DNA from: Apostichopus japonicus
Lineage: Eukaryota; Echinodermata; Holothuroidea; Aspidochirotida; Stichopodidae
Length of the DNA stretch: 64,000 nucleotides
Assembly: GCF_037975245.1 (NCBI RefSeq)
Contig: NC_092582.1
Span: 24,902,077 to 24,966,076, forward strand
Reading direction: 5' to 3'
The notes beneath the pieces were generated by a model that did no database searches, was not told the DNA's origin, and saw nothing but the letters and a program-made list of their open reading frames with translations. Numbering within the stretch: the stretch's first letter is position 1; every line of letters begins with the position of its first letter. Positions 2,980 to 47,579 of this stretch are shown here, one piece after another. Position numbers and translations under genes: made by a program.

Positions 2980-5900
2980 GTAAGAAGACGCGGTTAAAAT
3001 GATTTAATAAATCGATCTGTAAGCTACAGTAGGTACGGTAGGGAATAACTTATATAATGTAGCAAAATTTAATGTGTAAAAAGTAAGTTGGCCTGACGTT
3101 ACGTCAGGCCAACTTACTTTTACACATTCTCTTACACAGGCTCTCTAGTGGATAAGCAAGTTTGCTAACAGTTTTAGTTTATTTTGTAGCAAAATTTAAC
3201 GTAAAATTTGCTTTTATCATACAACTGTGCTGTATGGTTAAGTATTACAAGATATCCGGTCCAAGGTTTTCAATGAGTACAGTTTTTTGCATTATTCGTG
3301 ATTATAATGTGGCCATTGTGGGTACCATCTAGCATTTTGGTACGGATATCAGAATATTTGTGATTAACAATGTGGCCATTGTGGGTACCATCTAGCATTT
3401 TTGTACGGATATCAGAATATTCGTGATTAACAATGTGGCCATCGTGGGTACTACCTAGCATTTTGGTACGGATATCAGAATATTTGCGTTTTACAATGTG
3501 GCCATTGTGGGTACAGTACTATCTAGCATTTGGTACAGGTATCAGAATATTTGTGATTAACAATGTGGCCATTGTGGGAACCATCTAGCATTTTGGTAAT
3601 ATCAGCATATTCGTGATTAACAATGTGGCCATTGTGGGTACCATCTAGCATTTTAGTACGGATATCAGAATATTCGTGTTTTACATTTTTGGTACCCTCT
3701 AGCATTTTGGTTCGGATATCAGAATATTTGTGATTAACATTGTGGCCATTGTGGGTACCATCTAGCATTTTAGTACGGATATCAGAATATTCGTGTTTTA
3801 CATTGTGGGTACCATCTAGCATTTTGGTTCGGATATCAGAATATTTGTGATTAACATTGTGGCCATTGTGGGTACCATCTACCATTTTGGTACGGTTATT
3901 AGATTCATGGTATACTTGGGTTGTGAAAATGATGTGAAAATTAGTGAGAAATAAAAAATGTTTTGGAAATCCAAAAGGATACTTTTAGAGTCCTTAAGAT
4001 ATGTAAAGAGACCATAAATCAAGATACTTGAGCTGTATTTAGGTTACTTCACCAGGAAATTGGTTTGTTATATATCAGAAGGGGAGATTCTCAAGGGGAA
4101 AAGACCGGTGCGCTCTCCAAACGCAAACGAAATCAACCGAGGAACCTGTCATATGGTTCTTATCGACTTATTATTATTATTTATTATTATTATTTATTGA
4201 ATTTCATATAGCGCAACCCCAACAAAGTTCCAAACTTCCATGCAATTGCATAAGTTGTTGTTCTGCACTGCAGTGATGTCGAATGGGGTGCCTTTGCCTA
4301 CCTCAGTATTTGAGAAAGTGGCCAGATGCTGGGGCATATACTCTTGTCGGTCGGATGGGGACTTTAAATGGTGGTCCCAGGAGCAGGAATAGGAGCGCAT
4401 TGACACCCCTGCCTCGTTATCCTCTGAACACTTAAATCGTTCGTCCAAGATCTAACACTGGTAGGGCCTCAAATGAGCTAAGTGTAAGGCTTCCCTTGAT
4501 CCTTGGGTCTCTAAACTAACTGCCATGTAATAACCAGCAGCACTGGAGTGAGTAATATCGGGAAACCACGAATTAATCACCCTTTTAAGTTTATTCATAA
4601 TTAATGAAGACAAGATTATTTTCACAACATTTGTCTGAATTTCCTGTATGCACCTTACTTTGCACCTTGTTTTCGTATTTTTTAATTGGAACTGTTGCGT
4701 CAATGATCTAGCGTGTCGGCATAAATAAACCTGACTTGTTTGCATTCATGTGAGCACTTGGCTGTCACATGATCATGTTGTTGTGATTCTGATATCTGTT
4801 AACAGCACATTAGCACCGATATGGTAGACCCCTCTGTTGTTAGGATGGAGAGCCCCATTAGCACACATTTGCTAAAATATTAGAAATTTTATACAAGTTT
4901 TACAGTATTTGTTGATATGTATTTTCATGCGTATATCCAAACCAGTTAGTTTTTAGTGATTCCCCTGAAGATCAGATGTAAATACTGTACGTGCATATAT
5001 ATTTTTGATATTAATATTTAAGCTGTGTCAATTTTATTCTTCATAATCATATTTTAAGGGTTTTGTCATTTTGTGTTGTCATTGCAAAGCGCTCTTGAAC
5101 ATGCTTAAGCATGAAAAGAGCGCTAAATTTGGTAAAATAATAATAATAATAATAAACTGGTATGAGCTAAATGTAGCCTGTTGACCTATATGGTACTACC
5201 ACACTTCCATGTAGTAGATGTACCGAATACAGTAGCCTAGCCTAGATAGGAATGTCTCTGAAGATGTTGAATGACTGGTTGAAGCTCAACTACCAACGTC
5301 TGATTTTCAGAGTTTGTAGAGTTTTACTTGAAGTGGAATTTCCTTAATTGAAATACGGTCCACTTTCATTAAAACTACAGTAGGTACTAATATTGAAGCT
5401 AAATTACCAATGTCTGATTTTCAGAGTTTGTAGAGTATTACTTGAAGTGGAATTTCCTTACTTGAAATAGAGTACGGTCCACTTTCATGGAAACTAGGTA
5501 CTAATATTGAAGCTAAATTACCAACATCTGATTTTCAGAGTTTGTAGAGTTTTATTTGAAGTGGAATTTCCTTAATTGAATTACGGTCCACTTTCATTGA
5601 AACTAAGGACTAATATTGCAATGGAAACTGTATTTTCTTTGTTATCCATGTGTGTGAGCAACAAGTATCGCATATACAGTACACAGTATTTTAATTGTGT
5701 GCAACATTTGCTGGTATCGCTTCGAAGTGTTCTTTTATTCATTTAATATTTGATTACAATGTCAGTTTAACATACGAACTGTTCGCAGGTACGGTAATGT
5801 AAATGGATCAACACCTGTGCATACTGTAGCTTGGCCAGCAATTTTCTATCAAGGCTGTACTGTAACTCTACGAAAGCAATTGATTTTTTTCACAAGAGAG

Positions 5901-11900: not shown

Positions 11901-14900
11901 ATATAACCTTCAAATTTATACAATATGATTGCATGTATCATAACATACCGCATACAAATCACTGACGAAATTTCAGACAAATCGAATGGAAAATATAGAA
12001 ATGGCAGTCGTTCAAACACTGGCAAAAAATTGACAGAATTTTTTGCAGAATCGCACGATCACTATAATATAAGCTCAGTTTCAGCGAAGCTAAAAACTGT
12101 CTCATCAGAAACCAAAGCCTGTCATTAAGACAAGTTTATGTTTTGGGGTTCTAAGAATGGTATTTCAAGAACAGCTTTAGGGAAGGATTTTAAGGACTGT
12201 TATAATCTGTTATGGTACAGTATTTAGTGTTATTTCAGACAGCAATGAGTTCAACAGCCTCCTGTATTTAAGTGTGTACATTATCTCCTGTATTGTAGTG
12301 TCTGCCTTTTCTTTGCTATTTAAATACCTTATAAAGTTGCCAGGCCTCAAAAATGTGGGCTTTATGACATTTCTGGCCTGTTTGCCAGTAGAAAAAAAAT
12401 CAAAAAATACACTGTCATCTTTCTGCCAGTAGACATTAAGAACGTGAACACATGATAAGTCAATTAACAATGGTTAATTAAACCATCGCCATGACTATCT
12501 GTATCTTACCTTAGTCCTGTATTTAATGGTTTAATATTCAGGTAATATATGCCGACTGCTCCTATAAACCTGTACGTACAGTAATTTATGTATATGTACA
12601 GTATGTTGCAATTCAGGAAAATGCCATTGAGAACATAATGTTAGCCAATAGAATTCTAAGGACTAAGTATTAATCAAAATAAAATTAAAGTGTTAGCAAA
12701 CTGCTTACCTGTATCCACTACAGAGCCTGTGTAAGAGAATGTGTAAAAGTAAGTTGGCCTGATGTTTCGATCCTAGCAGGATCTTCTTCAGAGGCTAAAT
12801 GTATTATTTTGTATTTATATAAATAGTTTTAAAAGGTTCTGGCTAAAATTGTGGCTTGCTAAGCCTGGTTTCAGCCAGTTGGGACAGTTAACTAAGTTTT
12901 TGTATTTGTTAATACCACTCTTAACTCTTCTGCCATATTTTGCTTGATTCTGGGATTTTGGACTCTGTTCTCTTTTTCATAGTGTCTATCCTCTCCCTTC
13001 CATTTGCAAAGGCATTTGTTTTTGCGTATGTAGGTTTTGCAATTTGACTATGTACTCCCCTTTCCGCTAGAAGCAATACTCCTTGCATAACAGACCAAGC
13101 TCTTCTCCACCTCAATCAGAGCGTAAAAGTTTAAATTTTGCCTTCAGCTATCGTGAAGAGTCGTCGCTTTCTGAGTTTTTTTTCTGATGTCTTTTCAAGC
13201 CCGAACCAGGGGGTTCCCGCAAGGGGATTGCAAATATCTACAGTCTTGTCGGACATAATTTGGACGCAATTTCATTCAGAGGGTCATTTTTGCTCTCATC
13301 CTTGAGATGGAGATGAAAAAGAATAAAGTGACAAAATGTTTGGAGCGAAATACTGATGTTTTGTATCGTACAGTTTTATTCAATCAATAAACTATCAAGA
13401 AGAGCATTGGTAAAGCAATGATTATATGTACATGTCAACCCAGCATGCATGACATTTAAAAATTGATAAGGCACTAGCATAGCCACAGGGGTCCTATGGG
13501 GCCGCCACAGCTCAGCCCTCCATCTAAACCACACAGAAAACTAATGTAACGTTAGACATGTGTGAGAGAACTGTCAGGGTTTGTGAACCTTCCCTCCGTT
13601 CACCGGTTATCTAGAGAGAGATGATCATGCCTAAATTTGAACAACTCTTTAACTTTTTGCAAAGAAAATCGAGCAATCATTGTCAATATGATTCAATATC
13701 CTAATCAAAGATTTGAAATGAATTTCTTTTTTAATGATTCCCTTGTTTTTTTTGTTTTGTTTTTTTTCACAGGATGGTTACATTTCATTCAAAGAATTTA
13801 TCTGTGCTCTGTCAGTGACTTCTAGAGGTTCACTGGATGAGAAACTGGACTGTAAGTTTTTTTTTCATTCTTTTGTGGAATATTTTTACGTTATTTATTT
13901 ATGTTTGGTACTTTCTACTAGCAGGGTTTTCCCCCGGTAGTCACTTCTGGGAGGTGGCATGCCTCTCCATTTTTACTTTGAGACCACCTCACCAAAAAAT
14001 TGTCGCCTCACTGTTTCAGAGAAGGAATAAAAATGAGAAGAATTGCAATGCAACTTCTTTTACCCATGCCATCATCTGACATTGAAAACTTGGCTGGAAA
14101 AACTAAATTATAGCAACAATTAAAATCTCTTCTGCCTATTTAACATAGCATTTTTATCTAAATTATTGTTACGATAAATGACATTAGGATGTCTAACAAA
14201 TTTTCCTGGCGACAATGCCCCCAGACACCCCTGCCCCAAGGTATGCTCACACCCTCCAGTGTCACAAACAAGTTGCTTTCTCTCACACAAGAAATCCCAG
14301 GGGAAATCCTGCGTTGGCTATCTTGTTTTAACTCTATAGCGCTGTTATAGTGCTTTGTCGGTAGACATACACCTACAGTAACTGTTGCGTTGTTACAGTG
14401 CTTTGTCGGTTGATACTTATACACCTAACTCTTGCGCTGTTAGAGTGATTTGTCGGTAGGTACTTATACACCTAACTCTTGCACTGTTAGAGTGATTTGT
14501 CGGTAGATACTTATACACCTAACTCTTGCACTGTTAGAGTGATTTGTCAGTAGATACTTATACACCTAACTCTTGCGCTGTTAGAGTGATTTGTCGGTAG
14601 ATACTTATACACCTAACTCTTGCACTGTTAGAGTGATTTGTCAGTAGATACTTATACACCTAACTCTTGCGCTGTTAGAGTGATTTGTCGGTAGATACTT
14701 ATTCACCTAACTCTTGCCCTGTTACAGTGACTTATCAGTAGATACTTATACACCTAACTCTTGCACTGTTAGAGTGATTTGTCAGTAGATACTTATACAC
14801 CTAACTCTTGCACTGTTAGAGTGATTTGTCGGTAGATACTTATACACCTAACTCTTGCACTGTTAGAGTGATTTGTCAGTAGATACTTATACACCTAACT

Positions 14901-17900
14901 CTTGCACTGTTAGAGTGATTTGTCAGTAGATACTTATACACCTAACTCTTGCACTGTTAGAGTGATTTGTCAGTAGATACTTATACACCTAACTCTTGCG
15001 CTGTTAGAGTGATTTGTCAGTAGATACTTATACACCTAACTCTTGCACTGTTAGAGTGATTTGTCAGTAGATACTTATACACCTAACTCTTGCGCTGTTA
15101 CAGTGATTTGTCAGTAGATACTTACACCTAACTCTTGCGCTGTTACAGTGATTTGTCAGTAGATACTTATACACCTAATTCTCGCACTGTTAGAGTGATT
15201 TGTCAGTAGATACTTATACACCTAACTCTTGCGCTGTTAGAGTGATTTGTCGGTACAGTAGATACTTATACACCTAATTCTCACACTGTTAGAGTGATTT
15301 GTCAGTAGATACTTATACACCTAACTCTTGCGCTGTTACAGTGATTTGTCAGTAGATACTTATACACCTAACTCTTGCGCTGTTATAATGATTTGTCAGT
15401 AGATACTTTTACACCTAACTCTTGTGCTGTTAACAGTGACTTATCAGTAGACACTTATACACCTAACTCTTGCGCTGTTACAGTGATTTGTCAGTAGATA
15501 CTTATACACCTAACTCTTGCGCTGTTACAGTGATTTGTCAGTAGATACTTATACACCTAACTCTTGCGCTGTTATAATGATTTGTCAGTAGATACTTTTA
15601 CACCTAACTCTTGTGCTGTTAACAGTGACTTATCAGTAGACACTTATACACCTAACTCTTGTGCTGTTACTGTGATTTGTATCATCCACAATGCCTTCAC
15701 AATGTACCAGCTATTGAGTGTATTTCTAGTCAAGACTAATTACAGTTTTGTGTTTACCTACACAGGGGCCTTCAATCTCTATGACTTGGACCAGGATGGT
15801 TTCATCACTAAGCAAGAGATGTTGGATATCGTGGACGCTATTTATAAAATGGTGGTAAGGGCCTGGACAGGAGGGGATGGCAGAGTTTGAATTCTTTCAA
15901 TCAAGGATAATTAAATGTCCAAAACTAACAGATGTCTTTTGTTGGAATGTGTGGACTTGATAGCCTGAGATCATTATCCTAAGCCAAATCTCTGCTGCAA
16001 AGTGTTTGACTACAAAGTTTTCATAAATTTGGATAGTACTTAGAGAGGTCATGATTTATTTCCTGTGCTACCCAAAGCTGCAGGAATCACTCCTATTTTG
16101 CTCTGATCAATCAACTAAATTTGTATTGAGTCTAGGCAGTTGGAAATGTCTCTGTGTCAAGCTAAAGCTTAGTTGTGGGGAGGGGGGGATTGTTATCATT
16201 GATTAGTTCTTCAAATCAGAATCAAGCATTCTTGTATGTCGTCAATGACTCTTTGTTGCCAGTAACCAAGGACAGGTACCCGGAAGGGTGTCTGGTCTAC
16301 TCTGTAACACCAGTCATTATTCAGAGTGCACCCAATCTGAGGCAGGAAATTAAGAGCTGACATTTGGCAAAATAAATGTCATTATTAACGAGACGCTGAG
16401 AAGATGGGCAGTTAGGACATTCACACTTCACAAGTTATATTTTTATTTCTATTAGCTAATTGCCTTAGCTTGTTTTTCAGTTTGTTTACCGAGGCAACCA
16501 CCCCCCTCCCCCTCCCCCCCACACACACAGAAACCCATCAAGAGAGAGCAGCTAAAGAGAAGTATGCAAAAATAGTAATATCCAAACTGTAAACCTGGGT
16601 TATCCACATGAGTTGGGACTGCAGGTTGTTGATGGGAGAAAAGAAAACATCGATTTATCCTGTGTCCTGCACTGGACACAGTGGACAGTGCATGGTAAAA
16701 TGTATCTGCAGGCTTTTACTGTACAACTAATGTCAAGAAAATATTTTTCCCGGTTCTGGTCTCCACTTATCCTTGTTGTGTTGTTTTGTTTTTTCTTCAT
16801 CAGGGAAATATGATTGATCTTCCTAAAGATGAAGACACTCCAGAGAAGAGGGTGGACAAAATCTTTTCTCAGATGGACACGGTAAGAAAGACTTTAGTTT
16901 ACACAGTTTTCAAACTTTCCAGTCAGCTATTAACATCAACACAAAAAGATTCAAGTTTGGTTCCAAATTTCCAGTTGCCAGCGTTAATCAGAAGTTTCAA
17001 TAGGAAACAACCCTGGTACCTTTCAGTTGTTTATTTTTGCCGAGATCTTTTTGGCGGGAAAGGTAAAGAAAGGACACCCCCCCCACCACCTTGGAGTCTG
17101 TGGTTGTTCAACAATAGTTAACAGCATAGTAACAATAGTTAACAGCATAGTTAACAATAGTTAACAGCATAGTTAACATTCTATCATGTTCTCCAACCTG
17201 CCATTTAGTTTCAACGTTTCAGACATGGACGTATGGAACGTGTGTCTATGTGATGTCGTTGTCTTGTATGTTTCTTTACATCATTCTTGAAGCCGATTCA
17301 AATCCTGCAGCCTGCTTTTGTATCAAACTTTTTGAAGAGAGTTAACAAACCGTTCTGCTAGTTTTTTAAAATGTTAACAAAGTTAGTAGAGATAGTTAAA
17401 CAAGGGGAATAAAGAAGTTTAATAAATTAGACAAATGAATCACCTCTTTGTTTGTCCGTAAATCATACATAAGTACGAGATTAATTGATTTATATAATTA
17501 ATTAACAACAAACGGGTGTGATTAAAATAATACCAGTCTGTAATCCTACTCCTTGCCCAGATTCTTGCAGTATACAGTAGCAAGTACTATATTTACTAGT
17601 ACTTAACATGTGGTTGTGTGCATTCATGTATAATTTACTACATCTTTAGTATAAATGCTGTGGATTACATTATCTCCTTCACAGTGCTGCACTTTACTGT
17701 GACCTAGCTTTCAAATGACTATGCTAATGTCAAGGGTAAATAATAAGCTTAGGCTATATATATCAGGTATTGAAAGTGTTGTCAGCCTATTTTATAGATG
17801 TACAAGTTCATTTGGAAGAGCCACTACTGAGACTTTGTTGTGTCATGCAGGATATATAATATTAATAAATAATATTATAAATCTGTTCATAACTACATCC

Positions 17901-28194: not shown

Positions 28195-29580
28195 ATGATG
28201 TCAAAGGTTTAATAATACAGTAAATAGTAAGCATGTCCACTAAACCTATTCAAATATGCAACCACTCTTTTTCTCAAATACCAGGTTTGTCGCAACAATA
28301 TTTTAGATATGAATCACAACTCTCTGTCATCCATTTTGAATAGACATTCTTCAGCACTAATCAATATATTATTTCCTTTGGGTTTTCCTGTTTGCTCCTA
28401 CAGTCCTATTAATTAACACTGGCTTGAAATTCCTACCTTTGATACTAAACTTGTATATTACTTTATATCACTGACAATAATATTCTTACATTCTTCACAC
28501 AACAACTCCACTCATCCGGGGAAAAGAAAAAAAATTGTCAAAAAGGAATAAATAGTTATGGTACATTGAATTGATAGAATAATATTTTTTCTCCAGAAAT
28601 AAAGCTTAAAAAGTGATTTTATAGGATTACACAAATTTTGCACATTGAAATTGAATTATTGCAGTTAAAAGAACACAGTCAATAGTCATAAATAAGCACA
28701 TTCTAGTTTTGCTCTTTTATTATATTTGGTCGTATTTATATCATAAGTAGTTTCATTTAACAGAGCTATATGAATATTCAGTTACTGTGTATGTGAAACA
28801 CAAAGCAGGTGCAGCTAAAGCCAGTTTTATACCTAACTTTCCCTTTATAATTAGTTCAGTGCCTAACTGCAAATCTCTATCACATCCCATAAAATGATAA
28901 ATTTTAGTTAGAAGAATGTATATTTGCATATCGTTATAATAATAATTGAAACAAACTTTAGCATGGCACTCTTGAAAAAATATTTAACATCACTTTGGTA
29001 CCCACTAGAGGCCTACACACTACATCACTTGAATACACTCAAAATAATAGTCATTCATTTAAAATATTTAATTCAAATTATTTACACAGACTAGCATACA
29101 TTTAAAAACAAAATCCTTCATCACCTATACAAATAGATATAGGATAGTAAGACTGAATTAGCACACATAAATAATTAACCTCATTCATTTCACCAACTTA
29201 CTAATGAATGTTACCATTTCATGGTATCTCAATTATGCTATGTCTCATGTAACTGCACTGGATGCATTGTTTGCTCAATGTAGCCTCCTATGCAAGAAAC
29301 TACCAACTGTTATTACTTGTTGTCTATGTTGGCTCGGCTATTTACTATTTTGGGACACTGTATGAGCTAGACCAATTGTAGATCATTGCTGGATAGTTTA
29401 ATCGAGACTAACTGTAACTGCGTAATAGTAAATGGAGTTTAATTGTTATGTGCCAGCTACAGAAATCCAATCCTAATTCAAATTATGAAGCACTGTGTGA
29501 TCTGTCTGTTCTAGTTGATATGTTCATCTGCACAGTGAACATATTCAATCAGTTAATACCTCCATTTGTCACACCAAGGT
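28195..29580. other. Downstream/3' UTR side of the GGCT-like gene
   Basis: AT-rich, no exon recognised on either strand. The - strand AATAAA at 28716 is the nearest candidate 3' end signal. Confidence 0.45.
28716..28721 (-). promoter_or_regulatory. Candidate poly(A) signal of the GGCT-like gene
   Basis: The first AATAAA I found on the - strand beyond the stop codon, giving a 3' UTR of about 950 bases. Positional evidence only. Confidence 0.3.
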
Positions 29581-29704
29581 TCAGCTACGTACAGCAGGCA
29601 CACATGAGGGACATCACGCCAAGGTTCAGCTACGTACAGCAGGTACACATGGGAGACATCATGCCAAGGTTCAGCTACGTACAGCAGGTACACATGAGAG
29701 ACTG
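29570..29704 (-). repeat. Three 45-bp copies of the stop-codon end of exon 14
   Basis: Unit ccaaggttcagctacgtaca followed by gcaggtacacatgagagac (+ strand). The copy at about 29660-29704 encodes SLMCTCCT and the stop; the two further copies lie in the 3' UTR. Confidence 0.92.
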
Positions 29705-29784
29705 TAAGTGGTCTTGGTATAATGGAGACAACAGGTCAGCTCCAACTAAACATTGCTGTAGGTTGTAACTGTTACACAATGGCT
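29675..29784 (-). CDS. GGCT-like gene exon 14 (terminal, stop)
   Basis: The acceptor gattgttttacag is followed by two bases completing Glu, then PLCNSYNLQQCLVGADLLSP and LYQDHLQSLMCTCCT, then TAG. The phase fits exon 13 exactly. The segment GADLLSPLYQDHL matches the closing helix of GGCT-like domains. Its first 26 coding bases plus acceptor are the seed of the array of about 51 copies that fills the preceding intron, and its final codons with stop are repeated twice more downstream. Confidence 0.85.
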
Positions 29785-32700
29785 CTGTAAAACAATCAAT
29801 GGAGAATACAAAGTAATAGGGACCCTCAACACTACCATAGGTTGTAACTGTTACACAATGGCTCTGTAAAACAATCAATGGAGAATACAAAGTAATAGGG
29901 ACCCTTAACACTACCATAGGTTGTAACTGTTACACAATGGCTCTGTAAAACAATCAATGGAGAATACAAAGTAATAGGGACCCTTAACACTTCCATAGGT
30001 TGTAACTGTTACACAATGGCTCTGTAAAACAATCAATGGAGAATACAAAGTAATAGGGACCCTTAACACTACCATAGGTTGTAACTGTTACACAATGGCT
30101 CTGTAAAACAATCAATGGAGAATACAAAGTAATAGGGACCCTCAACACTACCATAGGTTGTAACTGTTACACAATGACTGTAAAACAATCAATGGAGAAT
30201 ACAAAGTAATAGGGACCTTTAACACTACCATAGGTTGTAACTGTTACACAATGGCTCTGTAAAACAATCAATGGAGAATACAAAGTAATAGGGACCCTCA
30301 ACACTACCATAGGTTGTAACTGTTACACAATGACTGTAAAAGAATCAATGGAGAATACAAAGTAATAGGGACCCTTAACACTACCATAGGTTGTAACTGT
30401 TACACAATGGCTCTGTAAAACAATCAATGGAGAATACAAAGTAATAGGGACCCTCAACACTACCATAGGTTGTAACTGTTACACAATGACTGTAAAAGAA
30501 TCAATGGAGAATACAAAGTAATAGGGACCCTTAACACTACCATAGGTTGTAACTGTTACACAATGACTGTAAAAGAATCAATGGAGAATACAAAGTAATA
30601 GGGACCCTCAACACTACCATAGGTTGTAACTGTTACACAATGACTGTAAAAGAATCAATGGAGAATACAAAGTAATAGGGACCCTTAACACTACCATAGG
30701 TCGTAACTGTTACACAATGGCTCTGTAAAACAATCAATGGAGAATACAAAGTAATAGGGACCCTCAACACTACCATAGGTTGTAACTGTTACACAATGAC
30801 TGTAAAAGAATCAATGGAGAATACAAAGTAATATGGCCCCTTAACACTACCATAGGTTGTAACTGTTACACAATGACTGTAAAAGAATCAAAGGAGAATA
30901 CAAAGTAATAGGGACCCTCAACACTACCATAGGTTGTAACTGTTACACAATGACTGTAAAAGAATCAATGGAGAATACAAAGTAATATGGCCCCTTAACA
31001 CTACCATAGGTTGTAACTGTTACACAATGACTGTAAAAGAATCAAAGGAGAATACAAAGTAATAGGGACCCTCAACACTACCATAGGTTGTAACTGTTAC
31101 ACAATGACTGTAAAAGAATCAAAGGAGAATACAAAGTAATAGGGACCCTTAACACTACCATAGGTTGTAACTGTTACACAATGACTGTAAAAGAATCAAT
31201 GGAGAATACAAAGTAATATGGCCCCTTAACACTACCATAGGTTGTAACTGTTACACAATGACTGTAAAAGAATCAAAGGAGAATACAAAGTAATAGGGAC
31301 CCTCAACACTACCATAGGTTGTAACTGTTACACAATGGCTCTGTAAAACAATCAATGGAGAATACAAAGTAATATGGCCCCTTAACACTACCATAGGTTG
31401 TAACTGTTACACAATGACTGTAAAAGAATCAAAGGAGAATACAAAGTAATAGGGACCCTCAACACTACCATAGGTTGTAACTGTTACACAATGACTGTAA
31501 AAGAATCAATGGAGAATACAAAGTAATATGGCCCCTTAACACTACCATAGGTTGTAACTGTTACACAATGACTGTAAAAGAATCAAAGGAGAATACAAAG
31601 TAATAGGGACCCTCAACACTACCATAGGTTGTAACTGTTACACAATGACTGTAAAAGAATCAATGGAGAATACAAAGTAATATGGCCCCTCAACACTACC
31701 ATAGGTTGTAACTGTTACACAATGACTGTAAAAGAATCAATGGAGAATACAAAGTAATAGGGACCCTCAACACTACCATAGGTTGTAACTGTTACACAAT
31801 GACTGTAAAAGAATCAATGTAGAATACAAAGTAATAGGGACCCTTAACACTACCATAGGTTGTAACTGTTACACAATGACTGTAAAAGAATCAATGTAGA
31901 ATACAAAGTAATAGGGACCCTTAACACTACCATAGGTTGTAACTGTTACACAATGACTGTAAAAGAATCAAAGGAGAATACAAAGTAATAGGGACCCTTA
32001 ACACTACCATAGGTTGTAACTGTTACACAATGACTGTAAAAGAATCAATGGAGAATACAAAGTAATAGGGACCCTTAACACTACCATACGTTGTAACTGT
32101 TACACAATGGCTCTGTAAAACAATGGAGAATACAAAGTAATAGGGACCCTCAACACTACCATAGGTTGTAACTGTTACACAATGGCTCTGTAAAACAATC
32201 AAAGGAGAATACAAAGTAATAGGGACCCTCAACACTACCATAGGTTGTAACTGTTACACAATGACTGTAAAAGAGTCAAAGGAGAATACAAAGTAATATG
32301 GCCCCTTAACACTACCATAGGTTGTATTTGTCACACAATGACTGTAAAAGAATCAATGGAGAATACAAAGTAATAGGGACCCTCAACACTACCATAGGTT
32401 GTAACTGTTACACAATGACTGTAAAAGAATCAATGGAGAATACAAAGTAATAGGGACCCTTAACACTACCATAGGTTGTAACTGTTACACAATGACTGTA
32501 AAACAATCAATGGAGAATACAAAGTAATATGGCCCCTTAACACTACCATAGGTTGTAACTGTTATACAATGACTGTAAAAGAATCAATGGAGAATACAAA
32601 GTAATAGGGACCCTCAACACTACCATAGGTTGTAACTGTTACACAATGACTGTAAAAGAATCAATGTAGAATACAAAGTAATAGGGACCCTTAACACTAC

Positions 32701-35700
32701 CATAGGTTGTAACTGTTACACAATGACTGTAAAAGAATCAATGGAGAATACAAAGTAATAGGGACCCTTAACACTACCATAGGTTGTAACTGTTACACAA
32801 TGACTGTAAAAGAATCAAAGGAGAATACAAAGTAATAGGGACCCTTAACACTACCATAGGTTGTAACTGTTACACAATGACTGTAAAAGAATCAATGGAG
32901 AATACAAAGTAATAGGGACCCTTAACACTACCATACGTTGTAACTGTTACACAATGGCTCTGTAAAACAATGGAGAATACAAAGTAATAGGGACCCTTAA
33001 CACTACCATAGGTTGTAACTGTTACACAATGGCTCTGTAAAACAATCAAAGGAGAATACAAAGTAATAGGGACCCTCAACACTACCATAGGTTGTAACTG
33101 TTACACAATGACTGTAAAAGAATCAAAGGAGAATACAAAGTAATATGGCCCCTTAACACTACCATAGGTTGTATTTGTCACACAATGACTGTAAAAGAAT
33201 CAATGGAGAATACAAAGTAATAGGGACCCTCAACACTACCATAGGTTGTAACTGTTACACAATGACTGTAAAAGAATCAAAGGAGAATACAAAGTAATAT
33301 GGCCCCTTAACACTACCATAGGTTGTATTTGTCACACAATGACTGTAAAAGAATCAATGGAGAATACAAAGTAATAGGGACCCTCAACACTACCATAGGT
33401 TGTAACTGTTACACAATGACTGTAAAAGAATCAAAGGAGAATACAAAGTAATAGGGACCCTTAACACTACCATAGGTTGTAACTGTTACACAATGACTGT
33501 AAAAGAATCAAAGGAGAATACAAAGTAATATGGCCCCTTAACACTACCATAGGTTGTATTTGTCACACAATGACTGTAAAAGAATCAATGGAGAATACAA
33601 AGTAATAGGGACCCTCAACACTACCATAGGTTGTAACTGTTACACAATGACTGTAAAAGAATCAATGGAGAATACAAAGTAATAGGTTACCTAGCTGATC
33701 AGGTTCCATACAGTTGGCAGTTCTGATATATAGTTTATTAATGCTGTAATTTTGACTTACCACTGTGCACCCAAGTATCCCTGGCTATATACAAGACTGC
33801 AGGTACACAATACTGAGCTACACCTAGCTTATCAGGTTCCATACAGTTGGCAGTTCTGAAATATAGTTTATTAATGCTGTAAGTTTGACTTACCACTGTG
33901 CACCCAAGTATCCCTGGCTATATACAAGACTGCAGGTACACAATACTGAGCTACACCTAGCTGATCAGGTTCCATACAGTTGGCAGTTCTAAAATAAAGT
34001 TTTATTAATGCTGTAAGTTTGACTTACCACTGTGCACCCAAGTATCCCTGGCTATATACAAGACTGCAGGTACACAATACTGAGCTACACCTAGCTTATC
34101 AGGTTCCATACAGTTGGCAGTTCTGATATATAGTTTATTAATGCTGTAATTTTGACTTACCACTGTGCACCCAAGTATCCCTGGCTATATACAAGACTGC
34201 AGGTACACAATACTGAGCTACACCTAGCTTATCAGGTTCCATACAGTTGGCAGTTCTGATATATAGTTTATTAATGCTGTAAGTTTGACTTACCACTGTG
34301 CACCCAAGTATCCCTGGCTATATACAACACTGCAGGTACACAATACTGAGCTACACCTAGCTCATCAGGTTAAATACAGTTGGCAGTTCTGATATATAGT
34401 TTATTAATGCTTTAAGTTTGACTTACCACTGTGCACCCAAGTATCCCTGGCTATATACAAGACTGCAGGTACACAATACTGAGCTACACCTAGCTTATCA
34501 GGTTCTATACAGTTGGCAGTTCTGATATATAGTTTATTAATGCTGTAAGTTTGACTTACCACTGTGCACCCAAGTATCCCTGGCTATATACAACACTGCA
34601 GGTACACAATACTGAGCTACACCTAGCTTATCAGGTTCCATACAGTTGATCATCCACACAGGCAAGACAACTTTGATGCAAAACTGAAAAAGAGGCAAAA
34701 GTAAACAGATGAAAGAAGCAAACAGACATAATTAAACACAGGTCTTCAGTACAGGCTGTGTTCACAACATCCTTCCAGTATTGCTGGTAGCCTTTCATAA
34801 TCATGTACCACTCGAATTTTACCACTAAATTTCCTGAAGCAATTTCTTGTCCCAAAGAAAAGATAAAAATCATAATTTCACAAATTTCAGTTCTGTTAAA
34901 TTGATACAAGTAAAATCCAGAATGACTATAAACTTAGAAGTAGTCACAGGCTTCATAAGGCTTGATATCTCATTTTCAAGCTAGCATTACAAGCCATTTA
35001 CAATTTCAATGTATTTACACCACTTTTAATCCAGCCATCATTCATTCACAGTAGTCTCAAGACACATTCATGAGAAATATTACTATCCTTATCATTTAAC
35101 AATTTCAACACATATTGATGGCTTTGACAGTACAATTTACATGTTATGTAATGTTAAGTACGTTATTGACATCTAAACGGTTGTCTTTCATCTTGAGTTT
35201 TCCATTTCATCAAATTATACAATTCAGTTACTTCAGTAATCTTCTACATGAGGTGTGCAAAGTTTGTTTGTTTTTTTTCATTCAAAACAGGTACATTTAG
35301 GCCTGAACAGTTAATAACAATTAAAGGCAACAAGGTATGTCTGCCATTACAGTGTGGTAGGGTAAGGCTAGGCATACTGGTGTTAGTTTTGAAAACCACA
35401 AACATTATTGTACGAGTGAGTTTGATGGTGAGAAAACTTGAGCTGCTGATTTTAGCCCAGCCGTTTTAAATACAGGGTCTATTTTTGTAGAAATATGAGA
35501 AAAGCAAGTGTGAGCTAAACTACCTGGTGGGATGTATACCTTCCTCCCCCCGCCCCTCTTCCCCACCCTCATCATAAAATTCAATCCAAGATGAGACAAA
35601 GTGTAATCCACACTTACTTTAGGACAACCGACTGCATTGTCCAAGAGAGCCATTTGTTCCAGTGATAAGCAGTAAATACAGCCTTCCACAGAATTCTCTG

Positions 35701-38700
35701 GACTGTGAACAATGTTAGGAAATCCACCAGCAGATAACTCCATTCCTATTTATAAAGACCAGAAACGGATGCACAAAATTAATTCATTCAGCACAAAAAA
35801 ACACCTCACCATCGGATCACGTGAGGTATCTGGCCTCATCTGAGAGGTGAAGCAGATGACCTCATCATTTCATGGATGAAGGGTGAAGGGGGAGTAGCAT
35901 GGTCTGTGATGGGTGATAAAGTACGACAGTCAAATAGCACTAGAAGTTTATAATGCAGAGTGTAAATTCACATGGTAGACCCAGAACAATACAACCTCAT
36001 CCCCCACCCCATCCCCCCGTCCATCCACCAATCATTCATTAACAACTTGAAATATAATTCATGTACTTGCACTTATTGAACAAAAATGTACTCGCATCAT
36101 AGTCATTTGGCGGCAGAATTATTCCCAACGTTTTGATAAAGATATATTTCAGGCCAAGATTGTTTACTCACCTCTTCTATTGAATTGCATCTGAAACCCA
36201 TACAGGATACCCCACATCCTATGGTTCTGCAATTGGCCTGTGTATGCTTGTAACCTAGCAGCGTTCATCTCCATACCGTAGGCGAAGAAATACACCGTAC
36301 CATCGGGGGGTCTCGCATTAACTTTAAACCCCATTGGTGGGATCATAAGACCTTGTTCAGCTCCAGATCGATCATGTCTGTAACAATGATACCCAAAACA
36401 ATGGTTCTTTGTACTTACAAAATATACAAATGAAGATTCAAAAAATATATATAAAAAAGGTTTATGTTAACACTTTCCCCCATGAAAAAACATGCTGTCA
36501 TGTTTAAGAGCATATTTTAAATTACTTTCGTTGATTATTACTTTCGTTGATTTAAATTACTTTCGTTGATTATTTCTTATTTGTAAAGATAATTTTTGGT
36601 TAAAGAAAAAAGTGTTGGTCCTATCAGCTGGGACAGTTAGCTCACTCTTTCATAGAGTGTGAACCAGCTAGCCAGTAAGAATGACCATGTGCTTTATGGA
36701 GATATTTGTAGCCCACCTTTTGTTTGCTATGAATGGTGGAGAATAATCTCGCACAGACTTTATATTACAATAATATTTCATGATATTACAATGATCACAT
36801 ACTGAGCATCTTGGATCCGTATTAAACTATTTTGCCTTGTTGGTCTCGAGAGCGTTTCTCCGTGCGTTCATCTCTTTACTGACGTTAGTCGTGAAATTGA
36901 CTTCACAGTTTTATATTTGGGACAAAAGATTATGGTCTCCCAAGTGTAATATTCTCTATTTAATGTAGCTTGAGAATGTCCAAACGTGCTCTGCAATTGG
37001 TTTAAGACTCAGTGACAAAAAGTTATGAAACAGGCCACAGAATTGACAAAAGCCAAGCCTTCAACAGACTAACTTGACTGATTAACCTCATTACCATGTC
37101 AAATATATGCAAAAAAGGCAGCATGGAATAGCTGTGTTCTGTGTTTCAATGTGAGAGCCAATTTAGAAATTAATCCTTAAAATTTGGAATATTGCTGGGT
37201 AAAGTGAACTTACCTTGGCTTCGTGGAAGCCACAATGGTCATGTTGTCCACATCTCTGTAGAGATATAAACAAATAAAAACTGTTTTACAATCTGAGAAT
37301 TGATGAAGCAAAATCGTTTTATATCTCACAGAGAGAGGAGAACACACAGTGGAGGTTAGGGAAGAAAATTATATTCGGTACTGAAATAGAATCAATAAAT
37401 AAATATGTACATTCCTGCAGTTAGCATAGAGAATAGCCATGCTGCTCCAAATAGTCAGTATTGGAAAAAACATTGAGTACAGAATAGGCCCTCCAATGTT
37501 GAAATAAGCATAGAGATTTCAAATTCAGATTTCCAACTTTCCAACTTTCATTTTCTCAGACACTTTCTTGGAATAGTTTTAATTATCATCAGATGCACAA
37601 AGTGCATGCGAGGTTTATTTAAATTATTTAGGGAATGAAACCTGACTATTACAGCTAATGAGTGTCAATGTTATGAATGCTTAATATCCTGAAGTACAAA
37701 ACATAAGATGAATCTACCAAAAATCAGACGGGATAAGCTGATTGAAGATGGTGTAGGTATTTTGTTGCTAGTCTCACATGGATGGTAGTGGTAAACAAAA
37801 ACATGGGTGTTTGTGGTAAACAAAAAACATGGGTGTTTGTGGTAAACAAAAACATGGATGGTTGTGGTAAACAAAAACATGGGTGTTTGTGGTAAACAAA
37901 AACATGGATGGTAGTGGTAAACAAAAACATTGATGGTAGTGGTAAACAAAAACATGGATGGTAGTGGTAAACAAAAACATTGATGGTAGTGGTAAAAAAA
38001 AATAGCTTCACCTCAATCATCAGAAGTTAAATCCTTCTCAACAAACTAAGTCCAAGTACAGTCAAATAAACCTGATTTTTTTCACACCTTTTTTATTATT
38101 TTTGAGACCTTTCGACTTTCCAAGAACCCATCTTAGACATGCCAAAACAAGAGTTTATACAAATGTCATATTTTAATGATTATAAACCTAGGAAACCACT
38201 AATAATTACCTCGCAGGTGAGTTCAGGGCAGATTTCATCTTTGCCTTATCCTTGACGATTTCAACCCTACTTTGGTTGTCATTCGGAGATATGTCTTTAT
38301 TCTGGAGTCCGGTCCCTCTCATCACCATCATCGTCCCTGTCATACCACATGGCGCAGACTCCGGTCTGGGACGCGTCTTTCTCCCAGATCCAGGAAGCCG
38401 TGACCTTCCCTCGCCTACTTCACTGGGGGTAGCCTCCCCACCGGCGGCTGAAAGAATCCTCTCATACCTTGAAACCAGAGCCAATTCTTTAAAGGACATC
38501 TCCTGTTGTGAGTTCCTCTCTTGACTGTAAACACACTCACACTCATCGATATCCTGTCCGCAGTAACTGCAGAACAAGACGGCTTCATCAAGATCGGGGA
38601 CATCCTCCAAATCAGATTGGTTTACAGCCTGTTTACCTTGGCCGGAGTTGTTATAATTCTGCTGTTGGTTACCATCATTACCTCCACCCTGACTGCCTGG

Positions 38701-44700: not shown

Positions 44701-47579
44701 AATTTTGGATAAGAACTCTGAAACAAACAAAAATATGATTAATACACTTACATTGACCTTATGGAGGACAGGTTCTCTGCCATGTTTAAATGGCTGAATA
44801 ACCTGTGAATTTTGTCTCAGTGTTGCAGCTTCCAGGCTAAGTGCTGATGGCAGTGGTGGCAAGTTAGACTTGTCTAGTGGCGGCGTGGCATGTGGCCAGA
44901 AACGGTTGTTCAAACTCCATAAGTTTGGTGGACCAGCAAGAAATGCAGGATTTCTGGGTGAGAATTGTAAAAGTTATGCAATAAATAGATTTATTTTAGA
45001 AATTGTTTTGACTTGTATTATTAAACTGGGCAGATATTGGCCACTAATCATCAACCAAGGTGTGTATGCTGATAGGTACAGAGTGTGCTTATACAGTAAC
45101 AATATGTAAATCTAATTACTACAACAAAAGTTTTTCTAAAACATTACAGAATGCATTTTGCAAATGGTTTGTCTGAAGGAGGTGGCGGTGGTGACCAACG
45201 AAGGAATATTTTCCTCTGATCGACCGTAGAAGTATTTTCAGATGTTGTAGACAGTTAACAACCATTACTAGCAGTCCAGGTTGAATTTCTATACCACTTT
45301 TTCTTTCTTTTTTGAGAAAATGAGCCGTCAGAAACTGGATGCAAAATATTTGGATACTACAAAGTCATCAGTGTTGGTACCAGATATATACTAGAAAGGC
45401 TGATAATGGTCACCAGGTTTTAAAACTTCAACAATCATTTCATTGCCAGTGCTGTAAAACTAGTTAATATCCACACTGGAAAATTTCATCATCTATTTAT
45501 AACAAATCCATAATATTTTCTGGAGATTAATTCGGAAAACCAAAGTCTTCAGGAAAGTACTTTTCACATCTAGCATAAACTAGTGGCCAATACTGATGAT
45601 CAGTTTTAAGACATGGCAAATAACTGTTTCCACTTCCAGGTGGTTTTGTCTCCAGCAAACCTACATACTAATTTAAGGAGAGCATGTTTGCAATGTCAGC
45701 TGTCTGAAATCAATATCACCAGCATTACACTTTTTCCATTGAGTGGAATCAAGGAGTGTTAGCTCAGTGGTTAACGCCGGTGCCTTTCAATCATAAGGTC
45801 CTGAGTTTGAGTCACTCCAAGATTAATGTATGTCGTCCAGTTACAGAGTTGTTGACAATTAACAATTCATAATCATGGACGTTAAATATGAATCTAAGAG
45901 ACTGACTTCGGTCAGCTTGCGGCTTTGATAAGCCAATGATGGCTTCTTCGCGAGTTCCTGCTTGCAGGAGGATCTAAAATACATACACACATACTGCACA
46001 TACACAATTTGGGATATTGCATCATTTATGCAAAGCGTACTTACTTATGTGTAAAGAAAGAGTTATAATTGTAAAATCCGGCTGAGGGAGTGTTTCTTGG
46101 GGTGGACTTTGGGGTTGCTCTCGGTGGACAAGGAGATTGGATGGCTGCGGACCCTTTCCTGGTGGTGGATGTTGACGATGTTGGTGGAGCTGCTTCAAAG
46201 TCCTGATACTTCCGTGATGATGGCGGTGGAGGCTTTCTCACAGCTGGTGAAGCAGAAGTTTTTCCATCTATGGTAAATGAAAACCATTACAAGTGATGAG
46301 ATTTCTAACATTTCATATTAATAGAAAGTTGTTGAAGTATAGCGTTACAACTCCGTTGGCTAGGAATAAAAACCGGAGTTACTGTCAGCATAGTGTGTAC
46401 GGTAGAATAGCATGTCTATAAGGAACATATTATAAACATTTCATATATGTACAGTACTCTGGTCCAGGGTGAGAACCATGGTATCTGAAATAGAACAGCA
46501 TGTCTATGAGGTCAATATTATAAACATTTCATATACAGTACTCTGGTCCAGGGTGAGAACCACGGTATCTGAACTACAACACCATGTCTATGAGGAACAT
46601 ATTATAAACATTTCATATATGTACAGTACTCTGGTCCAGGCTGAGAACCATGGTATCTGAACTAGAACAGCATGTCTATGAGGTTAATATTATATACCTT
46701 TCATATAGAGTTCTCTTGTCCAGCATTATGAATCTTTATCTTTTAGGACTCACCTACAATCACCTTGTCCATAGGAAGGTTGTCAACGCATAAGAATGGT
46801 GCTGGCTGAGATGAGAAAATAGATAGACCAATTATAATGAAGAAGAATATGTACAATTTAGTATTGCACAGGGCATACTACATACAGTACATACATGCAC
46901 TTTCAAAGGCATGTTTGCTTTTTAAATAGCATACAATAGTGCTATGTTATGAGCTCATCTCATACTATTACAGGTTGCAATGAGGTTATACTCCCAAGCA
47001 CTAGGTCATCTGAAAACTTGAAATTATCAAGCTGCAGAAATATCTTACTAGGTAGTAAACTGCATATTTTACTGATTTTCACTTGTCTAATTCTATGTAG
47101 GCTAATCAATGTGTAGAAATTAATTTAGAGGATATACACAGGAAAGTATTGCAATGAAACTTACAATTTTTAAAAATTTATAGTGTGCTAAACATTTGTG
47201 CCAACATTGATGACCACACTAATTACTTAACATAATCACACTTAACTAGTTACATATACTTTACCTCATCACTCCTCCTTGCCCTTGCCCTGGACTGAAT
47301 GGTAGCTCTGTTGGCATTACTGTCTAAGTCTGTCTGAGAAAGACCCACATCATTTTGAGGCACCACCACAACTGAAGAAGGAACACCATTTGCTAAAGTT
47401 GAGCTGTCATTTTCCCTCATCGTTGTCTGGGTTAGTTGACTACCATTCAGCTTGCTATCGGTGTCTTCAAAGCTTTGTGCAGGAAATCCAACCACTGGCT
47501 CCCTCCATTTTACTGCAGTGGCAACTCCTTGAATTTGCTTGACATTAAGCCCCGGTGCAATTGTTACTGGTTCCATCAT
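29675..47579 (-). CDS. Large protein with C-terminal GGCT-fold domain, 14 exons
   Basis: Fourteen exons on the - strand join into 3498 coding bases (1165 aa). All junctions keep phase if exon 9 starts at 39804. Residues 1 to about 1000 are mostly low-complexity Ser/Pro/charged sequence with a Cys cluster near 843-855 (CSYCGQDIDECEC) that could bind zinc. Residues from about 1003 match the gamma-glutamylcyclotransferase/AIG2-like fold: VYFFAYGMEMNAARL, FQMQFNRRG, GGFPNIVHSPENSVEG, MALLDNAVG, GVAQYCVPAVLYIARD, GADLLSPLYQDHL. In active GGCT the first motif is FAYGSN and the catalytic Glu lies in LDxxEG. Here these read FAYGME and LDNAVG, so I infer a non-catalytic domain. No named orthologue is recognised. 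The last intron is made entirely of tandem exon-edge copies. Confidence 0.85.
29758..33686 (-). repeat. Array of about 51 copies of exon 14's acceptor and 5' edge
   Basis: Units are 79 bp (acceptor followed by AGCCATTG, about 13 copies) or 77 bp (acceptor followed by TCATTGTG, about 38 copies). On the - strand each reads ctccattgattcttttacag and then about 24 bases of exon 14, then intron sequence. The first 26 coding bases of exon 14 are identical to the long units. Blocks at 32011-32242 and 32858-33088 repeat the same variant series about 847 bp apart, so multi-unit blocks have been duplicated. Confidence 0.96.
33689..34648 (-). repeat. Seven copies of exon 13's 3' half with splice donor
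   Basis: Unit 132-134 bp. On the - strand each carries the last 86-89 bases of exon 13 (MEPDKLGVAQYCVPAVLYIA region), the donor gtaagt and 46 bases of intron. Donors lie at about 33759, 33891, 34025, 34159, 34291, 34424 and 34559, the last being the real exon's. One copy near 34370 has a stop (ATT TAA). The array meets the acceptor array with only two bases between them. Confidence 0.96.
34560..34683 (-). CDS. GGCT-like gene exon 13
   Basis: The acceptor cctctttttcag is followed by FCIKVVLPVWMINCMEPDKL and then GVAQYCVPAVLYIARDTWVHS plus one base; the donor is gtaagt. This is the strand after the GGCT core that ends in the conserved VPxxxYIA segment. Its last 89 bases plus donor recur six more times in the intron that follows. 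Confidence 0.88.
35618..35745 (-). CDS. GGCT-like gene exon 12, GGCT core
   Basis: It encodes (G)MELSAGGFPNIVHSPENSV and then EGCIYCLSLEQMALLDNAVGCPK; the donor is gtaagt. It aligns without gaps to the GGCT core in which GGxA-xIxxSPGDxVWG is followed by LDEQEGV. The catalytic Glu position of that motif is Val in LDNAVG. Confidence 0.9.
36172..36377 (-). CDS. GGCT-like gene exon 11, start of GGCT fold
   Basis: The acceptor tcattgttacag is followed by HDRSGAEQGLMIPPMGFKVN and then VYFFAYGMEMNAARL and MWGILYGFQMQFNRR; the donor is gtgagt. The FxAYG loop and the FNRRG strand are hallmarks of the GGCT/AIG2-like fold. The usual Ser-Asn after FAYG, which binds substrate in active enzymes, is Met-Glu. 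Confidence 0.88.
37214..37255 (-). CDS. GGCT-like gene exon 10 (42 bases)
   Basis: Between tatctctacag and gtaagt it encodes DVDNMTIVASTKP with partial codons on each side, matching the phase of exons 9 and 11. It links the disordered region to the GGCT domain. Confidence 0.8.
37775..37998. repeat. Minisatellite, about 9 copies of 25 bp
   Basis: Units of ggtaaacaaaaacatggatg with gtagt or tttgt variants, in the intron between exons 9 and 10. It creates three spurious Phe/His-rich ORFs on the - strand. Confidence 0.92.
38210..39804 (-). CDS. GGCT-like gene exon 9, large disordered exon with Cys cluster
   Basis: About 1.6 kb of open frame, far longer than any other exon here. It is rich in Ser, Asp, Glu, Gly, Asn and Lys, with an acidic run (KSKSRDDDDKDGGDGDG) and, near its end, CSYCGQDIDECEC, whose C-x2-C and C-x-C pattern could bind zinc. 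It ends MKSALNSPA plus two bases before gtaatt. The strongest-looking acceptor (ttttacatcttacag, start 39829) does not match the phase of exon 8. The acceptor ttgattcccaacag at 39804 does, so the start is uncertain by 25 bases, or a microexon lies between. Confidence 0.85.
40089..40206 (-). CDS. GGCT-like gene exon 8
   Basis: It encodes VLLNDHVPDKTKDLTDRYIS and then RMNLTSYSQLTFYKVFEAK; the donor is gtaagt, phase 0. The acceptor is ataacagag; of three overlapping AGs only this one fits exon 7. Tyr/Leu-rich and probably folded; no family recognised. Confidence 0.75.
41196..41379 (-). CDS. GGCT-like gene exon 7
   Basis: The acceptor ttaattctgtag is followed by (E)GTTRSYTPSQSRLLQRKRE and then LLNMLPPDIFQTRPQ, ending DETRYNDLESDLG; the donor is gtaggt. 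The basic RLLQRKRELLNML helix is the clearest structured segment of the N-terminal half. Phase is 1 in and 2 out. Confidence 0.82.
41890..42640 (+). mobile_element. 3' fragment of a non-LTR retrotransposon (LINE)
   Basis: Reads LQWRVIFQIPFKSLRETKLQ and YFQFRFLHRILGTNHLL, the conserved tail after the reverse transcriptase of L1/Tx1-like LINEs. The Cys/His knuckle that follows continues in another frame (FCGLREETIELLFWECKII), so a frameshift in the T-run near 42155 has broken it. An A-rich tail ends near 42635. Antisense to the host gene in intron 6. Confidence 0.75.
42675..42850. repeat. (AAT)n/(ATT)n simple sequence
   Basis: Imperfect AAT/ATT repeats just upstream of the donor side of exon 6. 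Confidence 0.9.
42864..42931 (-). CDS. GGCT-like gene exon 6
   Basis: Sixty-eight bases encode LQPLHTFKMDGPAIEKCQGI and QP with one base on each side. The acceptor acacaaaacaag is weak, but it follows a T-rich tract and is the only nearby AG giving the phase that exon 5 needs. The donor is gtcaga. Weaker than its neighbours. Confidence 0.65.
43410..43540 (-). CDS. GGCT-like gene exon 5
   Basis: Between ctttcttctcag and gtaagt it encodes ERASSPSFEMKAQTVKAIHD and then VTRQISKQSSTTSVKPSGRLLKG plus two bases. The middle looks helical. A 35-bp minisatellite starts about 55 bp upstream of its acceptor. Confidence 0.82.
43598..43982. repeat. Minisatellite, about 11 copies of 35 bp
   Basis: Unit aaacaggaagggatcgggtg followed by atccttgtcaaaggt, differing at a few fixed positions (cgg/ctg/ccg; aaag/atat). 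It lies about 55 bp upstream of exon 5 of the GGCT-like gene. Confidence 0.94.
44752..44953 (-). CDS. GGCT-like gene exon 4
   Basis: The acceptor ttctcacccag is followed by one base completing Lys, then NPAFLAGPPNLWSLNNRFWP and onward to REPVLHKVN; the donor is gtaagt, phase 0. Its Trp/Phe content is higher than in the flanking exons, so this may be a short conserved motif region. Confidence 0.82.
45753..45996 (+). mobile_element. tRNA-derived SINE
   Basis: Its first 66 bases are tRNA-like: a stem ggagtg/cactcc, a box A-like ttagctcagtggttaacg and a box B-like gagtttgagtc. The anticodon stem cctt/aagg has an 8-base loop, so it is not a working tRNA. The unrelated body contains cttcttcgcgagttcctgc, and an A/T-rich acatacaca tail ends it. 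Inserted in an intron of the GGCT-like gene. Confidence 0.72.
46045..46267 (-). CDS. GGCT-like gene exon 3, proline-rich
   Basis: The acceptor tttaccatag is followed by DGKTSASPAVRKPPPPSSRK and continues with Ser/Thr/Pro-rich sequence to YNSFFTH plus two bases; the donor is gtaagt. The PPPP stretch could be an SH3/WW-type ligand (inference). Phase is 1 in and 2 out, consistent with exons 2 and 4. Confidence 0.8.
46409..46720. repeat. Four copies of about 85 bp
   Basis: Units hold gcatgtctatgaggaacata, acatttcatatatgtacagt and actctggtccagggtgagaa; some are shortened. In the intron between exons 2 and 3. Confidence 0.9.
46754..46805 (-). CDS. GGCT-like gene exon 2
   Basis: Fifty-two bases between ctcatctcag and gtgagt encode PAPFLCVDNLPMDKVIV plus one base. 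The phase matches both neighbours (0 in, 1 out). No domain is recognised. Confidence 0.78.
47265..47579 (-). CDS. GGCT-like gene exon 1 (start codon)
   Basis: It opens with ATGATG (MMEPVTIAPGLNVKQIQG) and runs 105 codons to SRARARRSDE, then the donor gtaaag, phase 0. The sequence is Ser/Thr/Asn-rich with no known domain. A cttgacag just upstream could be the acceptor of a 5' UTR exon, so the transcript may start farther up. The first of the two Met codons is chosen by default. Confidence 0.8.

Follow-up and report, generated by a model that had tools for sequence, protein, structure and literature searches.

Tandem repeats that run across exon–intron boundaries have been described in lancelet genes under the name 'mirages' and are reported to occur in Adh3, the globins BflGb6 and BflGb9, troponin C and PGBD5, apparently without disturbing regular splicing (PMC3087553, PMC3902484); length instability and the involvement of both 5′ and 3′ boundaries are described as well (PMC3087553). 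In human IFI6 (6-16), several splice donors are reported to lie in a minisatellite (Turri 1995, as cited in PMC4526556). Internal tandem duplication, covered by the Rogers model and by work on human repeats at exon–intron boundaries, shifts exon sequence into introns (PMC2812944, PMC2891723), and an earthworm metallothionein gene is reported to have a minisatellite-like repetitive intron together with exon duplications that are absent from the transcript (PMC12783039). Here we describe an intron in a 64,000-nucleotide stretch of the holothurian Apostichopus japonicus (contig NC_092582.1, positions 24,902,077 to 24,966,076; hereafter the window), which lies between exons 13 and 14 of a minus-strand GGACT-like gene, the exons being numbered as in an original prediction for this DNA. 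That prediction knew of no described class into which the intron would fall. Our analysis confirms it as an extreme, two-sided member of a class already described in lancelets, with the minisatellite donors of IFI6 as a further precedent, and the original interpretation was therefore only partly right. We consider it probable that this is a double, intron-filling mirage that arose by neutral growth in a minisatellite-rich genome, with the outermost splice edges kept.

The intron runs from 34559 to 29785 on the minus strand and comprises 871 bp of 133-bp units on the donor side, two bases, and 3,902 bp of 75–79-bp units on the acceptor side (871 + 2 + 3902), reproducing the originally claimed coordinates and length of 4,775 bp. 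Splice sites were judged by motif match alone, and acceptor coordinates refer to the last intron base. Its parts and flanking exons, with array limits from Tandem Repeats Finder (TRF), are as follows.

34560..34683, minus strand: predicted exon 13, 124 nt, ending in phase 1 (open frame, acceptor CTCTTTTTCAG, donor GTG/GTAAGT).
33689..34648, minus strand: donor-side array (mirage), 133 bp x 7.2, with 7 donors (TRF, unit sequences); 34560-34648 belongs to exon 13 (its 3′ part) and 33689-34559 to the intron.
33687..33688, minus strand: two bases separating the arrays (TRF boundaries).
29759..33686, minus strand: acceptor-side array (mirage), 75-79 bp x 50.8, with 51 acceptors (TRF, unit alignment); 29759-29784 belongs to exon 14 (its 5′ edge) and 29785-33686 to the intron.
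29675..29784, minus strand: coding part of exon 14, with TAG at 29675-29677 (frame from exon 13 in phase 1).

TRF described the acceptor-side array as 77 bp x 50.8 at 29759-33686 (94% matches, score 6846) and the donor-side array as 133 bp x 7.2 at 33689-34648 (96% matches, score 1806), scores that exclude a chance origin. Only two bases fall outside the arrays, which bears out the claim that no ordinary intron sequence is left. The donor-side array takes in 89 bp of exon 13 and the acceptor-side array 26 bp of exon 14, and the claim that both arose from the junctions of a single intron is supported. The donor motif GTG/GTAAGT is intact in all seven 133-bp copies, with GTGCACAGTG directly before each and GTAAGT at 34559, 34426, 34293, 34160, 34027, 33893 and 33760, and these seven donors, six of them further copies, are followed after the two bases by the acceptor array, in the predicted order. 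The acceptor TTTTACAG is present in 51 of 51 75–79-bp copies, spaced by 77 (38 gaps), 79 (10) or 75 (2) bases; because no gap is of double length, no lost acceptor site is hidden in the array. The prediction of a live-looking splice site at each duplicated junction thus holds at motif level for all 58. The units combine a portion of a coding exon with the boundary and the intron next to it, they carry splice signals (7/7 donors and 51/51 acceptors at motif level), and they are arranged head to tail as a minisatellite showing concerted evolution, with 94% and 96% matches and repeated exact blocks; these are the features of a mirage. An assembly artefact is unlikely if the 2023 A. japonicus assembly is the source of this DNA, since it was reportedly built from PacBio HiFi reads with a mean length of 14,729 bp at 64x (PMC10344927), so that one read could cross the entire intron.

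The join between exons 13 and 14 keeps the frame, and exon 14 adds 36 residues up to the TAG at 29677-29675. Seven donors and 51 acceptors allow 357 combinations (7 x 51), only one of which yields this long C terminus, namely donor 34559 joined to acceptor 29785. Donors 2–7 (306 pairs) lead to the tail GKSNLQH and a stop. Donor 1 joined to an acceptor followed by TCATT (38 pairs) gives VIV, with the stop three codons on, and with the other 12 inner acceptors it gives EPLCNSYNLW-like tails of 10 or 12 residues before a stop; unspliced exon 13 runs on for 7 codons to a stop. All pairs other than the outermost would yield proteins that lack the final 36 residues wholly or for the most part. A role of the 133-bp copies as cassette exons was considered and rejected, the stretch after an inner TATATCAG being 133 - 38 = 95 nt, which is no multiple of three. 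The original prediction took the acceptor array to be about 51 copies of acceptor plus exon 14 edge. The acceptor half of this claim stood in 51 of 51 copies, but the exact edge AGCCA of true exon 14 follows only 12 of the 50 extra acceptors, TCATT following the other 38, and most are therefore not exact copies of the exon edge. On the donor side, one of the six intronic exon 13 copies contains an in-frame stop (ATTTAA, by eye). The changed edges and the in-frame stop indicate that the inner copies have escaped coding constraint, as expected of intron.

Within the 77-bp array, exact blocks recur (314 bases at a shift of 541, 253 at 847 and 249 at 154), the 50 units fall into 23 distinct types, and the five edges nearest exon 14, the true edge included, keep the AGCC form. 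We read the blocks and the AGCC edges as signs of minisatellite turnover that began at exon 14. The aligned unit has 56 invariant columns out of 79, most of them outside the splice site, so selection on the splice sites in this unit is indistinguishable from recent copying. The last 133-bp copy overruns its own unit boundary and abuts the middle of a 77-bp copy, which suggests that the original central part of the intron was deleted once both arrays were in place. Two other origins for the units were rejected. A dispersed repeat element is unsupported for the 77-bp unit, since all 40 of the 40 genome matches listed for a 154-base piece of the array lie at this locus (match counts being lower bounds, as very common words were skipped). 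Derivation of the 133-bp unit from the 77-bp unit found no similarity beyond that of shuffled sequences, 80 of 300 of which reached the same score.

Mirages recur elsewhere in the genome. We surveyed 148 exon loci from family searches, a non-random sample that favours short exon-like matches and contains related genes and some overlapping stretches; it took in the 28 best kinase places plus 60 of the remaining 106, 54 of 70 listed myosin head places and 6 of 19 listed ABC places. Arrays lay over a match edge at seven of the 148 loci, six of them clear mirages and one (L147) marginal, so that clear mirages make up ~4% (6/148), or about one exon in 25, and 5/147 if the look-alike genes L047 and L048 are counted once. 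The six are L025 (31 bp x 16, GTAAGT), L047 and L048 (a 70-bp unit of about 63 exon and 7 intron bases), L080 (42 bp, GTAATC), L098 (53 bp, about 8 exon bases) and L138 (124 bp x 3, on the acceptor side, 75 exon bases). When L047, L048, L080, L098, L138 and L147 were extended 1.6–4 kb into the intron, the junction array stopped in each and was followed by non-repeated sequence. For L138 the preceding exon lay within the stretch and its donor bore no array; for the other five, in which the extensions covered no located next exon, a second array farther on is possible. The double, intron-filling form was seen at none of the six extended loci, only in the window. L047 (with L157) and L048 (with L162) are look-alike kinase gene copies 3.3 Mb apart (C11 near 6.327 Mb and 9.613 Mb); the 70-bp donor mirage is common to both copies, with about 12 and about 11 units, so either it was copied along with the gene or it is older than the duplication.

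Coverage by arrays of period at least 20 was counted in three samples. Flanks were covered at 3861/54000 (7.1%), 1831/36000 (5.1%) and 5610/84000 (6.7%) bases, the outer 40 bases of matches at 2.3%, 1.2% and 0.7%, and interior match bases at 29/8778 (0.33%), 35/6921 (0.51%) and 0/15994 (0%). Seven of 296 match edges were covered, and across the three samples no excess over flanks was seen at junctions. Since some match edges do not coincide with exon edges, the junctions number at most 296, and the share of them that is covered may in truth be larger, reaching roughly the flank level if one match edge in two is real. Junctions therefore look tolerated rather than targeted, and exon interiors look protected. 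In the whole genome, three spaced copies of CAGGTAAGT occurred in 6 distinct arrays, compared with 7 for a reversed control motif; these arrays were counted by hand among the places listed, and with numbers this small and a pattern this narrow no enrichment of donor motifs in arrays was found. Three of the six (L163, L165 and L168) are preceded by an open frame that runs up to the donor, and their units contain the exon edge; they look like further mirages, one of them in a KRI1 gene; in L164, L166 and L167 no clear open frame ends at the donor. L163 matches Pfam Kri1_C at 5.6e-28, and no Pfam match was obtained at E 0.01 for L165, L166 or L168; L165 may be VPS39. The KRI1 donor mirage at L163 (C2:28048938-28050349) has a 54-bp unit and about 27 copies of CAGGTAAGT. 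At L168 (C17:905383-905838), the 56-bp unit has an acceptor-like AACTTACAG and the donor CAG/GTAAGT, and each copy resembles a 30-nt micro-exon plus intron.

These observations bear on two alternatives to neutral growth. In the first, the arrays would be a splicing control device whose competing sites set the ratio of full-length to C-terminally truncated protein. The motif kept in 7/7 donors and 51/51 acceptors would suit such a device, as would the short set tails (GKSNLQH, VIV, EPLCNSYNLW-like) in which wrong pairs end, but the invariant columns of the unit lie mostly outside the splice site, mirages occur in unrelated genes (kinases, myosins and KRI1), and match edges are no richer in arrays than flanks, giving no sign of recruitment; lancelet mirages, too, are reported to leave splicing undisturbed. 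We regard a control device as improbable. It is slightly less probable still that exon–intron junctions are mutational seeds, with splice sites provoking tandem duplication: although both junctions of one intron were struck, mirages recur in the survey, and half of the genome-wide arrays with three donor motifs stand at the end of an open frame, the 7/296 match edges covered show no excess over flanks covered at 5–7%, and CAGGTAAGT triplets are no commoner than the reversed control in the small, narrow comparison above. Nothing in the survey marks junctions out as preferred places for seeding.

The gene itself was reconstructed from the DNA by joining four exons of 206, 128, 124 and 110 nt into 188 residues. 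The two exons upstream of exon 13 are as follows.

36172..36377, minus strand: exon 11, start of the GGACT-like domain (open frame, splice sites, sub-cut-off Pfam match).
35618..35745, minus strand: exon 12, remainder of the GGACT-like match (open frame, splice sites, sub-cut-off Pfam match).

Residues 31–120 of the joined exons match Pfam GGACT (PF06094) with 18.4 bits and an E value of 0.0033, against a gathering cut-off of 22.8; by that score the gene is only GGACT-like as regards membership of the GGCT/GGACT fold, and the original GGCT-like label is weak. Exon 14 may resemble the last helix of GGCT proteins. A search for a paralogue in which to compare the intron found none at E up to 10, all 10 of 10 protein matches lying at this locus (11 residues of the query were wrong). 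The least probable of the alternatives is that the gene in practice stops with exon 13, or that exons 13 and 14 do not belong together, the arrays being ordinary neighbouring minisatellites. In favour of this are the Pfam match, which falls short of exon 14, and the brief unspliced read-on; against it, the 77-bp array stops 26 bp inside an in-phase open frame behind a good acceptor motif, and the true edge keeps its coding form where 38 of 50 copies have lost it.

Three smaller arrays in the window were noted alongside, the first of them in exon 14.

29569..29702, minus strand: third small array, 45 bp x 3, covering the final coding bases and the stop codon of exon 14 (TRF); two more in-frame stops lie within its repeats beyond the TAG.
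14329-15680: 47 bp x 28.6 array lying immediately upstream of a plus-strand EF-hand exon, apparently intronic and ending short of the exon.
46403-46707: 88 bp x 3.5 array upstream of an apparent exon of the same minus-strand gene; its units have an acceptor-like TTTCAG and no recognised exon edge.

The 45-bp array may be a copy of exon 13, with which it aligns over 14 bases with one mismatch, a score reached by 4 of 500 shuffles.

The neutral double mirage is favoured by both arrays ending inside open-frame exons, and we count for it a genome rich in arrays and lancelet precedents reported to splice normally. Several points weigh against it. The intact state of all 58 splice sites could hint at selection. 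The gene model is supported by frame and splice motifs, and the joined-exon protein matched none of 177635 PDB sequences and no NCBIfam family. Because the Pfam match extends just nine residues into exon 13, exon 14 lies outside it and is supported by its frame, its splice motif and the way in which the true edge differs from the decayed copies. On balance we infer that the arrays are probably neutral. Growth would have started from a short intron of at least about 100 bp, judging from the intronic parts of both units. A tandem duplication spanning the exon 13 donor and a separate one spanning the exon 14 acceptor would then have seeded arrays that multiplied by the usual minisatellite turnover, and loss of the remaining middle would have left the partial 133-bp copy against the 77-bp copy; the order of these events is our reconstruction. 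Such growth would be tolerated because duplication of a junction spares the outermost exon edge and splice site, and the inner copies become intron. The long C terminus needs the first donor to be joined to the last acceptor, which the cell would mostly do, helped perhaps by exon definition of exon 13 (through its acceptor and first donor) and of the terminal exon (through the last acceptor and the poly(A) site).

More tentatively, junction-spanning minisatellites may be a major way in which holothurian introns have grown and still grow, affecting ~1 exon in 25 and able to overwrite an entire intron, as in the present case, with the spliceosome reliably preferring the outermost pair; we hold this broader proposal to be possible, falling short of probable. 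If it is true, the locus is a natural assay of splice-site choice in which dozens of perfect inner donors and acceptors are ignored. The findings themselves suggest that mirages, known from lancelets, are common in an echinoderm, and that junction-spanning duplication is an inexpensive means of intron growth, since what it produces is absorbed as intron. With seven identical donor motifs and 51 identical acceptor cores, the intron forms a natural construct in which the pair used bears directly on exon definition versus first-come choice.

Among the papers listed in the literature searches, few of them subscription papers, the name 'mirages' is applied to such repeats in lancelets only, and a two-sided mirage may already be in print, perhaps in the original Adh3 or IFI6 papers. 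Like the window intron, lancelet mirages, as reported, are minisatellite-like repeats that span a donor or acceptor boundary and have AG/GT in many units, with concerted evolution inside and preserved ends. The same sources give 3 or 6 units for BflGb6 and 2–7, by assembly version, for PGBD5, whereas the window intron has 7 and 51, and in PGBD5 arrays sit at two junctions within the gene, which may or may not belong to the same intron, whereas here both boundaries of a single intron are repeated without unique sequence left. In human IFI6 a minisatellite likewise supplies repeated donors at an exon end, but its repeat units reportedly serve as donors for alternative mRNAs (as cited in PMC4526556). 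The models of internal tandem duplication share with the window intron the movement of exon sequence into introns; in those models a new intron is created, whereas here an existing intron has been enlarged and overwritten.

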